Of a stretch of 63,264 bases of DNA, positions 1,307 to 5,957 are shown one piece after another. The notes under the pieces were generated by a model. It was given only the letters and a program-made list of their open reading frames with translations. It searched no databases and had not been told where the DNA came from. Made by a program: the position numbers and the translations under genes. Source of the stretch: Geobacteraceae bacterium (GTDB lineage: Bacteria > Desulfobacterota > Desulfuromonadia > Geobacterales > Geobacteraceae); contig JAMXLF010000020.1 of the NCBI GenBank assembly GCA_024281055.1, forward strand, positions 1 to 63,264. The letters run 5' to 3'. Positions within the stretch are counted from its first letter, which is position 1, and each line of letters opens with the position of its first letter.

Positions 1307-1460
1307 TCAAAAGAGGATAGAAGGTACACACTTCATAAAAGAGGTTCCAACTCGCGGCTTGACCGGCCCAATTGGCTGCAGTCGTGGCTCCGAGGAGGGG
1401 GCGAACTTGACTTTTGTAGGCATTTTGGAGTATGCTGCCTGAAAGTTAAAAATTAAAGCA

Positions 1461-1542
1461 GATAGACGATACTACTAAACCATCCGTGAGGGTGGGACGG
1501 AAAGCCTAAAGGGTCTCAACGAGACAGCCGGGATGCCGAAAT
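1461..1542 (+). promoter_or_regulatory. GEMM-I riboswitch, likely the cGAMP-type (GEMM-Ib) subclass
   Basis: Conserved GEMM-I blocks appear in order: ACTAAACC (1474-1481), a P2 hairpin CCATCC-GTGA-GGGTGG with a GNRA tetraloop (about 1480-1496), GGGACGGAAAGCC (1494-1506), a GTCTC-AAC-GAGAC hairpin (1512-1524) and the receptor-side GCCGGGATGCCG (1527-1538). The ACTAAACC form places A rather than G at the position that distinguishes 3',3'-cGAMP from c-di-GMP riboswitches, as I recall from Geobacter GEMM-Ib RNAs. An intrinsic terminator overlaps its 3' end, so control is probably by transcription termination. The downstream target is the gene at 1656. Confidence 0.85.
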
Positions 1543-1571
1543 ATCTCAAGATATTAGGCCCCGGCTTTTTT
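1525..1571 (+). terminator. Riboswitch expression platform terminator
   Basis: AGCCGGG (1525-1531), which is also the 3' helix of the aptamer, can pair with CCCGGCT (1559-1565), followed by six T. Aptamer and terminator are mutually exclusive, so ligand binding would be expected to stop terminator formation and switch the gene on. The direction of control is inferred. Confidence 0.75.
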
Positions 1572-1655
1572 ATGTCGATTTGGAGATGTAGTCAGAAACT
1601 TAATTTGGGAACCCTTAACTATCAGGCATGCAGCCAACGGCTGCAAAGGAGGCAA

Positions 1656-2234
1656 ATGATGAGCAATCGTATTTACAAGGTCAGCGGATCGGCTCTCCTG
1701 CTCGGGGCGCTACTTGCCTGCGGCGCTCCTAAAGAGGTGGCGGCAGGGGGTGTCGATGTCGGGGTTAACGTCAACCTCGGACCACCCCCAATCGTGGTTG
1801 CCGAGCCGCCCGCTATGGTCATGGTGCCTAATACCTCGGTCTACTTTGCTCCAGAGGCCAATTTCGACGTCTTCTTCTGCAATGGCTACTGGTGGAGTCC
1901 GCGTGGCGGCAGATGGTACCGGTCCCGAGCCTATAACGGACCGTGGCGACACATGGACCGCCGCTTCGTTCCCCGGCCGGTGTTCGGCGTGCCACATGAC
2001 TACCGGCATGTCTATGCGCGGGAACGGCACATTCCGTACCGTGAGTGGCGGGAGCACCACGGCGGAGGCCATGGCGGGGGTGAGTACCACGGCGGGGGTC
2101 ACGGCGGTGGTCATGGCGGGGGTGAGCACCACGGCGGGGGCCACGGCGGAGGCCATGGCGGAGGTGAGCGCCAAGCCGGGGGCTATGGCGGAGGCAACGG
2201 CGGAGGTGGTCACCACGGCAGGGGTGAGCACTAA
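1656..2234 (+). CDS. Riboswitch-controlled exported His/Gly-rich protein, unknown function
   Basis: A 192-residue protein with an N-terminal signal; ALLLGALLACG fits a lipoprotein signal with Cys about residue 22. The middle part carries the pattern VYFAPEANFDVFFCNGYWW...WYRSRAYNGPW, shared with the protein on the opposite strand at 5304-5957. The last 55 residues are HGGGHGGG-type repeats, a likely metal-binding or low-complexity tail. AAGGAGG at 1646-1652 supports ATG 1656 or 1659. A longer reading frame starting at 1533 would run through the riboswitch terminator and is rejected. It is the only gene after the GEMM element, so cyclic dinucleotide control of an envelope component is the direct reading. 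The molecular role is unknown. Confidence 0.8.
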   Translation: MMSNRIYKVSGSALLLGALLACGAPKEVAAGGVDVGVNVNLGPPPIVVAEPPAMVMVPNTSVYFAPEANFDVFFCNGYWWSPRGGRWYRSRAYNGPWRHMDRRFVPRPVFGVPHDYRHVYARERHIPYREWREHHGGGHGGGEYHGGGHGGGHGGGEHHGGGHGGGHGGGERQAGGYGGGNGGGGHHGRGEH

Positions 2235-2368: not shown

Positions 2369-2446
2369 GTCCCCTTCGTCTAGCCCGGCCCAAGACACCG
2401 CCCTTTCACGGCGGCGACACCGGTTCAAATCCGGTAGGGGACGCCA
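2369..2446 (+). tRNA. tRNA-Glu (anticodon TTC), copy B
   Basis: Same 78-base gene with encoded CCA as at 2-79, apart from an AAGACA instead of AGGACA in the D-loop region. It follows the tRNA-Lys remnant and is followed by the same terminator type. Confidence 0.95.
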
Positions 2447-2453
2447 AAAACAC

Positions 2454-2487
2454 GAAGCCCTTTCGCAGCAGCGGAAGGGCTTTTTTC
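2454..2487 (+). terminator. Rho-independent terminator after tRNA-Glu B
   Basis: GAAGCCCTTTCGC-AGCA-GCGGAAGGGCTT followed by TTTTC. Homologous to the hairpin at 88-120. The next 110 bases, to about 2595, match the DNA behind tRNA-Glu A and contain no gene. Confidence 0.85.
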
Positions 2488-2668: not shown

Positions 2669-5023
2669 ATGAGGTATCATGCTATACTTTTTTTGTTACT
2701 TGCCGTGGCCATTGCCGGGTGTGCCGGTAAAGCCCTGCCGCCGGTTTTTGTGAAGATCCCGACTAGGACGATCGACTACCAGAAGGAAGTAAAGCCTCTT
2801 CTCGACAAGCGGTGTACTGTCTGCCACTCCTGCTACAATTCCCCCTGCCAGCTCAAACTCGACTCGTTCGAAGGGACTGACCGAGGGGCCACAAAAAAGG
2901 CCATCTATAACGCCTCGCGGCTGGCCTCTATGGATCCGACTCGCCTCTTCATCGATGCGCAAACGACGGGTGAGTGGCGAAAAAAAGATTTTTTCAGTGT
3001 CACTGAAAGTACTGCTGCGAACGGTTTCAATGACTCGATACTGATTCAGTTGCTTTCCCACAAGATGAAGAACCCGAAGAGCAGCGGCGAGTACCGGCCC
3101 GAAACGGATGAGCTGACCTGCTCGGAGGACCGGAAGGAGCTGGGGGGATACCTGGAAAAGCATCCGAACCGCGGCATGCCGTATGGCTTTCCACCGCTCA
3201 AGCAGGAGGAGTTCGAGACCATCGCCGGTTGGCTGGTTCAGGGCGCCAAGGGGCCCGATGCGGCCCAGCAAAAGGAACTGACCACGCCGAAGCCGAGTGA
3301 CGCCCGCGCCATCCAGCAGTGGGAATCGTTTCTGAACGGGGACGATGCCAAGCATGCCATGACGGCGCGTTACCTCTACGAGCACCTGTTCCTGGCCCAC
3401 CTGAAGTTCGGCACGCCGACCAATGAGTTCTTTGAACTGGTCCGATCCAGAACCCCTCCGGGCCAACCACTCGAGCTGGTATCCACCGTGCGCCCCTATG
3501 ACGACCCCGGCGTCGGGCACGTCTACTATCGATTCCGCAAGATCCACTCAACCATCGTCAACAAGACCCACATGGTCTTTGATCTCGATGACGCGCAGCT
3601 GCAGCGCCTCAACGAGCTTTTCATCCAGCCCGAGTGGCTGCAGCCCCCGCACCTGATGGGCTATGACCCGAAGACGAGCGCCAACCCGTTTGCGACCTTC
3701 GAGCAGATCCCTCCGCGTTCGCGCTATCAGTTCCTGCTGGACAACGCGCATTACATCATCATGACCTTCATTCACGGGCCGGTCTGCAAGGGGCAGATCG
3801 CTCTTAACGTGATCGATGACCATTTCTGGGTCATGTTCTTGGACCCAGACCATGACCTGAGCATAGAGTATCCGGGCTTTTTGAAGCTCTATAGCGACAA
3901 GCTGCGGATGCCCATCGAGAAGGGGAGCGACCTGCGCATCTTTTCGGCGTTGACCGATGAGCACCGGAAGGCAGCGGTCGAGTTCTACAGGGCCCGGCAG
4001 GATTTCTACTCGACGCTGAACTACGCCGGCCTCGGCTACGAGTCCATCTGGAAGGGCAGCCGCGCCGCCGATGCACCCGTGTTGACCATCTACCGCCATT
4101 TCGACAGCGCCTCGGTGCACAAGGGGGTGCTGGGCAATCTGCCGAAGACCATGTGGGTCATTGACTACCCGCTTCTCGAACGGATCTACTATGCACTCGT
4201 TGCCGGCTTCGACGTATACGGCACGGCCGGCCACCAGCTGGCGGTGCGGCTCTATATGGATGCGCTGCGCGTCGAGGGAGAGAGCTACTTCCTGGATTTC
4301 CTTCCCCCGGGAAAGCGGCGGGAGGTCATGCAGTCGTGGTACCTGGATGTCGACCTCGAGAAGATGAACTTCTATTCCTCGAATCTGCCGGCGAAAATAT
4401 CCTTTACAACTGACGACCCGAAGCGCGAATTCATGGAGCATATCGTGAAGAAGCACCTGCTGCCGGCTGCGGGCATCACGTTCGATCCGGTGAACTATCT
4501 GCCGGCAGGAGCTGCCTATCCGCAATTACCCGCGAAATACGAAACCAGGGACGACTATCTGCGGGCGTTTATCTTTCTTTCACAGCCCGGCACTCCCTTC
4601 TTTTCCCTTGTCAACGATTACAACGCCAACCTTGCCTACCTGAGAATCCGCCTGAAGAGCGGCAGGGACATCGCCGGCACCATCGTCGTCAACCGCTGGC
4701 ACGACAATGTCGCCTTCATGTTCGGCGAGGATGGTCGGCTCGATCCCGCAAAGGACAGCGCCGATTTTATCCATGGTCTCATCGGGTCGTACCCGAACTA
4801 CTTTTTTGACGTCCGGGAGGAAGATCTTCCCGACTTCATCGATCTCCTCGCCCATTTCGAGAAGAGCCCGAAGGACCTGGCACGGCTCGGGAAGTATGGC
4901 ATAAATCGGGCCGACGAACGGTTGTGGGAAACCTACGACTGGTTCCAGCAACGCTTCAACGAAGATGAGCCGGTGCGGGGCGGGCTCTTCGACCTGAACC
5001 GCTACTACTATAATGCCCGTTAG
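2669..5023 (+). CDS. cti: Fatty acid cis/trans isomerase (Cti), haem c type
   Basis: A 784-residue protein matching the Cti family in length and layout. Cti converts cis unsaturated acyl chains of membrane phospholipids to trans in the periplasm, without ATP, and so stiffens the membrane under solvent or heat stress. The N-terminus (AIAGCAG) looks like a lipoprotein signal. Near residues 49-60, CTVCHSCYNSPCQ holds the CXXCH haem c site and the extra cysteines typical of Cti. It is flanked by tRNA-Glu B and a kinase remnant and appears monocistronic. A TATAAT box at 2624-2629 may be its -10. The start ATG 2669 fits the signal peptide, although the ribosome site (GAGGGAG, 15 bases upstream) is distant. 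Confidence 0.92.
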   Translation: MRYHAILFLLLAVAIAGCAGKALPPVFVKIPTRTIDYQKEVKPLLDKRCTVCHSCYNSPCQLKLDSFEGTDRGATKKAIYNASRLASMDPTRLFIDAQTTGEWRKKDFFSVTESTAANGFNDSILIQLLSHKMKNPKSSGEYRPETDELTCSEDRKELGGYLEKHPNRGMPYGFPPLKQEEFETIAGWLVQGAKGPDAAQQKELTTPKPSDARAIQQWESFLNGDDAKHAMTARYLYEHLFLAHLKFGTPTNEFFELVRSRTPPGQPLELVSTVRPYDDPGVGHVYYRFRKIHSTIVNKTHMVFDLDDAQLQRLNELFIQPEWLQPPHLMGYDPKTSANPFATFEQIPPRSRYQFLLDNAHYIIMTFIHGPVCKGQIALNVIDDHFWVMFLDPDHDLSIEYPGFLKLYSDKLRMPIEKGSDLRIFSALTDEHRKAAVEFYRARQDFYSTLNYAGLGYESIWKGSRAADAPVLTIYRHFDSASVHKGVLGNLPKTMWVIDYPLLERIYYALVAGFDVYGTAGHQLAVRLYMDALRVEGESYFLDFLPPGKRREVMQSWYLDVDLEKMNFYSSNLPAKISFTTDDPKREFMEHIVKKHLLPAAGITFDPVNYLPAGAAYPQLPAKYETRDDYLRAFIFLSQPGTPFFSLVNDYNANLAYLRIRLKSGRDIAGTIVVNRWHDNVAFMFGEDGRLDPAKDSADFIHGLIGSYPNYFFDVREEDLPDFIDLLAHFEKSPKDLARLGKYGINRADERLWETYDWFQQRFNEDEPVRGGLFDLNRYYYNAR

Positions 5024-5303: not shown

Positions 5304-5957
5304 CTATCTTTCATGATGACCGTGCTCGGGACCTCCATGTGGCCCCTGCTGTTGATACTGCTGCTGATAGTGCTGCCGAACAACCGGTTCATGTGGTTGG
5401 TAACGATATTGCTGGCCGTGAAACTGACGTTGTTGATCAAACGTAGGATAACGATTTTGTGGATATTGCCTCTGATAGGTAGGCAACGGGGCGGTCGCAG
5501 GAGCAGCGCTTCGATTCCACTTGTTCCATCCCCTTCGATTCTGCTCCCACCCCCGGCCCCAGTGCTCACCCCAGTGGGGAGCCGCGTTCGGCTTCCATCC
5601 GCGGAAGTATGCGGGAGGATGTCGGTAGTACCTCACGGGTATGCGCAGGATGAAATCCGGGACAATTTGTGGATTGCACAGCGCCCAGGGGCCATTGTAC
5701 CAAGAACTCGCGTACCAGTTATCGTCCAGAAACACCCAGTACATGCCATCGTAAAAGAAATAGTTGGCATTGACCTGTGGCGCGTAATAGACTGGATAGC
5801 CGGGCACCGGGACGAGCTCCGGATACGCCGGCACGTTGATGCCGATGCTCAGGTTCGGCACTCCAATGTTGATACTTACCCCACCCCCCGCTGAGGAAGA
5901 TCCCACCGAACACAAGAGCATAACCAAAACAATGATCCCATAACGTATTCTCTTCAT
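5304..5957 (-). CDS. Exported protein related to the riboswitch-controlled protein, unknown function
   Basis: A 217-residue protein. Residues 1-23 are a classic signal peptide (KRIRYGIIVLVMLLC...SSSA). The next part, VPGYPVYYAPQVNANYFFYDGMYWVF...WYASSWYNGPW, lines up with the protein encoded at 1656-2234, so the two share an envelope domain. The tail differs: after about residue 130 it is Trp/Arg-rich (HWGEHWGRGWEQNRRGWNKW), then Gln/His-rich to a GPEHGHHER end. A ribosome site GGAGGACAATC precedes the ATG at 5957. No riboswitch is visible upstream, unlike its relative. Function unknown; an outer-membrane or periplasmic structural role is only a guess. Confidence 0.75.
   Translation of the reverse strand: MKRIRYGIIVLVMLLCSVGSSSAGGGVSINIGVPNLSIGINVPAYPELVPVPGYPVYYAPQVNANYFFYDGMYWVFLDDNWYASSWYNGPWALCNPQIVPDFILRIPVRYYRHPPAYFRGWKPNAAPHWGEHWGRGWEQNRRGWNKWNRSAAPATAPLPTYQRQYPQNRYPTFDQQRQFHGQQYRYQPHEPVVRQHYQQQYQQQGPHGGPEHGHHER

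Follow-up and report, generated by a model that had tools for sequence, protein, structure and literature searches.

The window analysed here is the whole of contig C20 (63,264 nucleotides) of the 4.44-Mb genome of a Geobacteraceae bacterium, and the structured leader near its beginning raises three related questions: which second messenger is read by this RNA, how is the reading converted into gene expression, and what kind of protein is placed under its control. The initial annotation had proposed a GEMM-Ib-like riboswitch, possibly tied to cGAMP, in front of a small envelope protein rich in histidine and glycine. In the accessible parts of the published work, to which all citations below refer, cGAMP serves Geobacter growth on Fe(III) particles and deletion of gacA lowers the expression of genes behind GEMM-Ib riboswitches in Geobacter (PMC6456294); the pilM riboswitch is an experimentally studied cGAMP ON switch, in which the terminator excludes the aptamer (PMC9262584).

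The class of the element is clear. A covariance-model search, which the initial annotation had suggested as a check, matched positions 1464-1540 (+) to RF01051 (GEMM-I, c-di-GMP-I) with 43.3 bits and an E-value of 3.7e-05, which is above the gathering score of 35 bits and spans the full model (1-87), as membership of GEMM-I demands. The sequence blocks that had been named, ACTAAACC and GGACGGAAAGCC, are both present, as is the GNRA tetraloop (GUGA; GTGA in the DNA), and the earlier claim that all GEMM-I blocks occur here therefore holds. The aptamer scores 98.2 bits with R1, a model made from 24 aptamers of the same genome (the window aptamer among them). An IUPAC core pattern has one mismatch-free match in the window, and with two mismatches allowed it is found 0.15 times on average in shuffled sequence (at least once in 14 of 100 shuffles); a chance origin of the riboswitch match is ruled out by these shuffles together with the Rfam E-value. 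Of the pairs in the Rfam structure, two are non-standard in the window, A47-G67 and G41-A70 in aptamer-column numbering. Regarding the subclass, alignment A1 places an A at 1474, the position equivalent to G20 in Vc2, and an A where Vc2 has G20 is what distinguishes GEMM-Ib, in agreement with the cGAMP-type form proposed at the outset. Relative to c-di-GMP-I elements of the Vc2 type, the Rfam family and the fold are shared, but the window has an A instead of the G that reads one guanine, and its inner helix is CU/GG rather than GC/GC. Judged by its sequence, then, 1464-1540 is a GEMM-I riboswitch with the cGAMP-subclass signature. The features of the locus are collected in Table 1.

Table 1. 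Features at and around the leader, in window coordinates (4YAZ and pilM equivalences follow the accessible parts of PMC7288161 and PMC9262584).
Feature	Position	Strand	Evidence
Probable sigma-70 promoter (TTGACT, 18 nt, TATGCT)	1407-1436	+	9 of 12 consensus matches
Outer P1 helix, 5' strand AGAUA (partner 1542-1546)	1460-1464	+	MFE fold, leader ended at 1547
GEMM-I aptamer with A20 (cGAMP, GEMM-Ib) signature	1464-1540	+	RF01051, 43.3 bits; R1, 98.2 bits
C in place of 4YAZ contact A12, the only deviation among 11	1472	+	hand-placed on alignment A1
A of the A20 signature (A14 of 4YAZ)	1474	+	hand-placed on alignment A1
ACTAAACC block	1474-1481	+	sequence
GNRA tetraloop (GUGA)	1486-1489	+	sequence
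Predicted intrinsic terminator (hairpin 1526-1566; U-tract 1566-1571, six U)	1526-1571	+	fold energy
C equivalent to pilM C75 (Vc2 C92), Watson-Crick partner of the ligand	1536	+	hand-placed
Shine-Dalgarno AAAGGAGG	1645-1652	+	sequence
Target gene, predicted secreted protein with YNGPW-motif core and Gly/His-rich tail	1656-2234	+	ORF; alignments A2 and A4; core model
Four-copy tandem repeat with a 42-bp unit, coding for most of the Gly/His tail	2057-2224	+	Tandem Repeats Finder
tRNA-Glu	2369-2446		ARAGORN
Terminator-like site	2454-2483		consensus scan
CTI, fatty acid cis/trans isomerase, next recognised protein gene on the strand	2669-5023	+	PF06934, E 1.8e-261
Paralog of the target family, no riboswitch at its locus	5304-5957	-	34% identity, E 2.5e-14

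The window riboswitch is one more well-formed case of a known regulatory system. The genome holds 41 GEMM-I matches (40 above the cut-off), and R1 matches at E <= 1e-8 are found in at least 221 of the 277 genomes of the class, with 17 candidates scored per genome, which together rule out a unique or novel riboswitch. A GEMM-Ib-like block is common to 26 of the 41 elements, the remaining 15 being of other types (R1 itself has 31 matches in this genome); 24 of the 26 have an A at the Vc2-G20 position, one (L026) has a G, and one (L040, below the Rfam cut-off) has a disrupted 5' part. Alignment A1 comprises 24 of the 26, with L040 and one duplicate left out, and its structure, written with one lower-helix pair shifted by a column, is 97.6% paired, with four pairs changed on both sides against zero or one when the structure is slid. 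One of five measures, the number of further pair types, gave 7 against 7.0 in shuffles, a value reached by 409 of 500 shuffles. Five GEMM-I elements (L004, L006, L008, L009 and L017) depart from the 26 in combining an apparent A20 with an inner helix of the ordinary GC/GC type (AGAGCAAA form).

Several of these elements occur in groups. At C26:76341-76910, three GEMM-I matches (L011, L020 and L001) lie in a row before a gene that appears fibronectin-like by eye: two are GEMM-Ib-like with A20, and the third is of the G20 (c-di-GMP) type, with 80.4 bits, and this leader may read two second messengers. Tandem pairs of GEMM-Ib-like elements are found at C8:95665+95937, C29:17479+17617, C35:73375+73592 and C26:38714+39002 (the element at C26:38714 is below the Rfam cut-off), with haem-motif or L,D-transpeptidase-like proteins encoded downstream, as judged by eye.

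The way in which the window leader would switch can be read from its predicted folds and from the signals around it. Two sigma-70-like sites were found between 1300 and 2700 on both strands, against 0.9 expected. Of the 26 GEMM-Ib-like elements of the genome, 16 have TTGAC in the 80 nt that precede them (mononucleotide-shuffle mean 1.9), and L204, a riboswitch locus of family f3, aligns with window positions 1404-1575 at 78%; given this recurrence and an alignment that starts at 1404, the promoter at 1407-1436 is probably real. The hairpin at 1526-1566 has a folding energy of -21.6 kcal/mol, while shuffled sequences average -9.88 (z -4.67) and none of 200 is as good. A simpler consensus scan, limited to plain stems and loops of 3-8, did not list it. 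As the 5' arm of the hairpin, AGCCGGG, is the aptamer's own 3' strand, the terminator had been rightly described as overlapping. Folded at increasing lengths, the leader is aptamer-like, with the outer helix formed, when ended at 1547 and 1551, adopts other structures at 1555 and 1560, and forms the terminator at 1568. When the P2 and P3 pairs of the aptamer are enforced on the full leader, the energy is -28.1 instead of -36.1, that is, 8 kcal/mol less stable, which fits the requirement of an OFF default. Exclusion of the aptamer by the terminator, as an ON platform implies, is thus a property of the computed fold. An aptamer-overlapping terminator is also predicted in 26 of the 26 GEMM-Ib-like elements of the genome, or in 21 when the search is stopped at early T runs.

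The gene behind this leader was given a new start, at ATG 1656 or 1659 instead of 1533, with the stop at 2234; the Shine-Dalgarno sequence at 1645-1652 makes 1659 more likely than 1656. The protein has 191 or 192 residues, a signal-like N-terminus and a tail of 58 residues with 35 Gly and 12 His, just as the initial annotation had described it in its His/Gly-rich part. The same annotation had called the protein lipoprotein-like, and this is the weaker part: one LLAC motif is present, but by eye a Cys is found there in only 3 of the 15 members of alignment A2, among which AxA-like sites are common. The product is most likely an exported, small envelope or surface protein, with a modelled beta-rich core and a disordered Gly/His tail. 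AlphaFold2 modelled the core from the wider alignment with a pLDDT of 85.1 and a pTM of 0.76, and the full-length protein poorly (pLDDT 47.4). With the core model, Foldseek listed 37 matches at E <= 10 but none that reached E <= 0.001, the best Z in VIA-align 2 was 4.3, and we make no claim of a known fold. Sequence searches likewise gave no relatives in the PDB at E <= 1, no Pfam match for the protein at E <= 1 or for its core at E <= 0.1, and no NCBIfam match for the protein.

Relatives of this protein are found in 47 of the 48 genomes of the window's taxonomic family. In four of these genomes the matches coincide in their coordinates with named Geomonas loci (L147, L139, L149 and L136), Geomonas being a genus of Geobacteraceae. 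Thirty named loci cover Geomonas, Geobacter and Citrifermentans, as well as metagenome-assembled genomes titled Nitrospirae, Margulisiibacteriota, WOR-1 and others, and the best E-value among the thirty belongs to a Nitrospirae one. We aligned the window's own subfamily (A2, 15 rows: 13 of the 18 loci L048-L065, a paralog on contig C6 and the window), a sister subfamily (A3, 19 rows) and both in a joint alignment of 41 members (A4); A2 and A3 match each other with 99.6% probability and an E-value of 1.6e-23. Ten of the 41 members of this wider family match the WXXGXW family (PF12779) at E <= 0.1 (best 2.9e-06), unlike the window protein and its core. The C6 paralog is 73% identical to the window gene, with an alignment that begins only at 1635, and neither R1 nor Rfam finds a riboswitch at its locus. 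The more divergent paralog in Table 1 (locus L043) likewise has no R1 or RF01051 match.

As to what such a protein does, any specific role is doubtful at best. One proposal, compatible with an ON switch, is that the protein binds metal or minerals, its Gly/His tail chelating metal ions at the surface. The 12 His of the tail, the common occurrence of Gly-rich tails with His or charged residues among the relatives examined, and the service of the known cGAMP programme to growth on Fe(III) particles (PMC6456294, in its accessible part) speak for it; the tail, however, is built largely from a 42-bp tandem repeat, for which slippage is a possible means of expansion, and its sequence is not conserved, being Arg-, Lys- or Met-rich in relatives in A2, and we regard this role as unlikely.

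The gene appears to be the only one under the control of the leader, as had been claimed, since a tRNA-Glu gene and a terminator-like site precede the next protein gene on the same strand (2669). That gene, CTI, carries an N-terminal CxxCH haem-binding motif. Upstream of the riboswitch, the ORF at 443-1306 is Gly-rich, with collagen-like repeats and a signal-like start. The tRNA-Glu(UUC) gene at 2369-2446 is nearly identical to another at the contig end (2-79), 2.3 kb apart, and just before it lies a 3' tRNA-like fragment (about 2322-2362), Lys-like by eye and without an ARAGORN call; the duplicated tRNA-Glu and this fragment could be an old integration site.

We return to the ligand. The accessible part of PMC7288161 lists the contacts in the cGAMP riboswitch structure 4YAZ as G8, A11, A12, U13, A14, C15, A41, A42, G74, C75 and C76; with numbering placed by hand on alignment A1, 10 of these 11 bases are identical in the window. 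In pilM, C75 is the Watson-Crick partner of the ligand (PMC9262584), and G20 and C92 are reported to be less conserved than A47 (PMC9049102). The genome also seems equipped to make the ligand. Of 26 GGDEF matches, 22 have a readable motif, and the position at which Ser marks cGAMP synthases (as given in PMC6456294) is Asp in 17, Ser in four and Asn in one. Two of the Ser-type domains have GGDEF or GGDEY and two have GGDDF, as in GSU1937, which is reported active (PMC8835794); by this motif, the four are likely Hypr GGDEF enzymes, that is, cGAMP synthases. By eye, the genes downstream of the GEMM-Ib-like elements encode haem-motif proteins, L,D-transpeptidase-like lipoproteins and a regulator-pilM pair, the latter preceded by an element (L031) with all 11 contact bases of 4YAZ, and these other targets resemble the published G. 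sulfurreducens regulon in the accessible part of PMC6456294. Compared by features rather than by full sequences, the window riboswitch shares with pilM (G. metallireducens), Gs1761 (pgcA) and Gm0970 the A20, a terminator that uses the aptamer 3' strand, the ON logic and a multi-copy regulon beside Hypr GGDEF enzymes; it differs from them in having C for A at one contact and in its target gene.

Considering the A20 signature and the 10 of 11 contacts, the pilM-like logic, the exclusive folds, the Ser-type GGDEF domains and the family link described below, we find it very probable that this leader belongs to GEMM-Ib, the cGAMP-sensing subclass of GEMM-I, and works as a transcriptional ON switch, in which cGAMP turns the gene on by antitermination. 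A Hypr-type GGDEF enzyme would produce 3',3'-cGAMP, which the nascent leader would bind with C1536 and A1474 as base-reading positions; the bound ligand would hold the aptamer and block the terminator, allowing RNA polymerase to proceed into the gene. Without ligand the terminator, which in the computed folds uses the aptamer 3' strand (1526-1532) and UAUCU (1542-1546), would win. The product would then be exported and made within the cGAMP programme of Geobacter growth on mineral particles, this being the least certain step.

With the same class and the same ON mechanism, the natural ligand might instead be c-di-GMP, or both messengers about equally, with C1472 altering the pocket. A12 is a listed contact (PMC7288161) that is C in the window, the accessible part of PMC6456294 mentions a riboswitch of Geobacter that responds to both ligands (A20 alone is therefore no proof of selectivity), and the 17 Asp-type GGDEF domains have the residue of ordinary diguanylate cyclases. 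On the other hand, A20 and the other nine listed contacts are cGAMP-like, and whether genes of the sister subfamily have the C or the A form of the riboswitch varies between genomes; we consider this reading improbable. Within the genome, three of the 26 GEMM-Ib-like elements have the C form, that of the window included. In the 48 genomes of the window's family, the C-variant pattern occurs at 31 places in 20 genomes, and a reversed control pattern at none; 30 of the 31 places were examined, one of them (L185) is no riboswitch, the remainder of the motif being absent, and nine of the 30 examined lie before genes of the window's protein family. The same genomes have 639 R1 matches at E <= 1e-6, a count from which filters lose weak matches and which includes some other GEMM-I types, so the C form accounts for roughly 5% of them.

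The favoured reading, a cGAMP ON switch, draws part of its support from the association between riboswitch and protein family. When one sister-subfamily locus was taken from each of 30 genomes, that of the window among them, an R1 match lay 57-143 nt upstream of the gene in 20 (L121 being judged from L181). Among the ten others, L123 has one about 0.7 kb upstream, L132 has one downstream, and eight have none within the stretch examined, although four of these (L122, L128, L129 and L130) have an R1 match about 2 kb upstream; L126 begins at a contig end, so that its upstream region cannot be judged. A comparison made by hand in ten genomes (nine single-piece ones and that of the window, with 173 R1 matches) found that 10 of 38 family matches have, among the R1 matches listed, one within 250 nt upstream on the same strand, against about 0.14 expected from 173 matches and one gene per kb, an expectation that treats orthologs as independent. 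Two of the 38 may be one gene, and three of the ten come from the source genome of R1; among the R1 matches listed, one further family match has one at 0.7 kb and two have one at about 2 kb. For the sister subfamily more widely, thirty further loci contained R1 in 13 cases: 8 of 10 in the window's own taxonomic family (in genomes counted before, one of them with a different gene), 5 of 7 in f3, none of 12 in f4 and none of one in f2. The 17 further loci without R1 also gave no GEMM-I match with Rfam, and the same holds for L122, L126 and L128. As far as these sequence matches go, the riboswitch-protein link extends to a second family, f3, but not to f4.

The window's own subfamily behaves differently elsewhere. 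Neither R1 nor Rfam matches were found in any of its 18 loci L048-L065, and riboswitches were found in none of the 11 more distant loci L066-L076 and none of the 30 named loci (which overlap in species with the L048-L065 set). Conserved riboswitch control of this subfamily is unsupported by the 18 and 30 loci and by the C6 paralog, and cGAMP control is thus not needed for the subfamily in general. Since these relatives are without the element, either the riboswitch would have joined the window gene separately or it would have been lost from its relatives. The weakest reading, in which the riboswitch has decayed or was captured recently and has lost its switching, leaving a constitutive terminator or a read-through leader, has in its favour the one altered contact base and the related genes of the same subfamily without riboswitch, but is highly improbable: aptamer, terminator, promoter-like site and Shine-Dalgarno look intact, and the recurrence of the C variant in 20 of the 48 family genomes makes decay signalled by C1472 unlikely.

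In the accessible parts of the literature searched, a scope outside which the 2015 target papers (Kellenberger, Nelson) fall, the protein family is not named as a cGAMP target. PMC13194489 places a GEMM riboswitch before the hypothetical protein KN400_1038, which, from what the accessible part gives, may or may not belong to the same protein family. A second kind of protein downstream of such riboswitches, small, of secreted type and His- or charge-rich, has the motif VNINGYLPAP; it is the likely first gene in L168 and L169 and the second ORF in L028.

Tentatively, we put forward the possibility that the secreted YNGPW proteins, partly related to WXXGXW, are a core, unrecognised cGAMP output in Geobacteraceae and a sister family, in which the riboswitch would have been kept with one subfamily across genera and captured separately by the subfamily of the window, and in which the C-for-A variant before nine genes would be a tuned sub-type. 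The interest of the locus lies in this recurrent target family and in the recurring C variant, rather than in the single case. A protein family without assigned function emerges as a repeated target of a cGAMP-type riboswitch, giving a short list of knockouts for the role of cGAMP at the cell surface, and the genome itself contains a natural control, in the form of a pair of 73%-identical paralogs of which only one carries the riboswitch.
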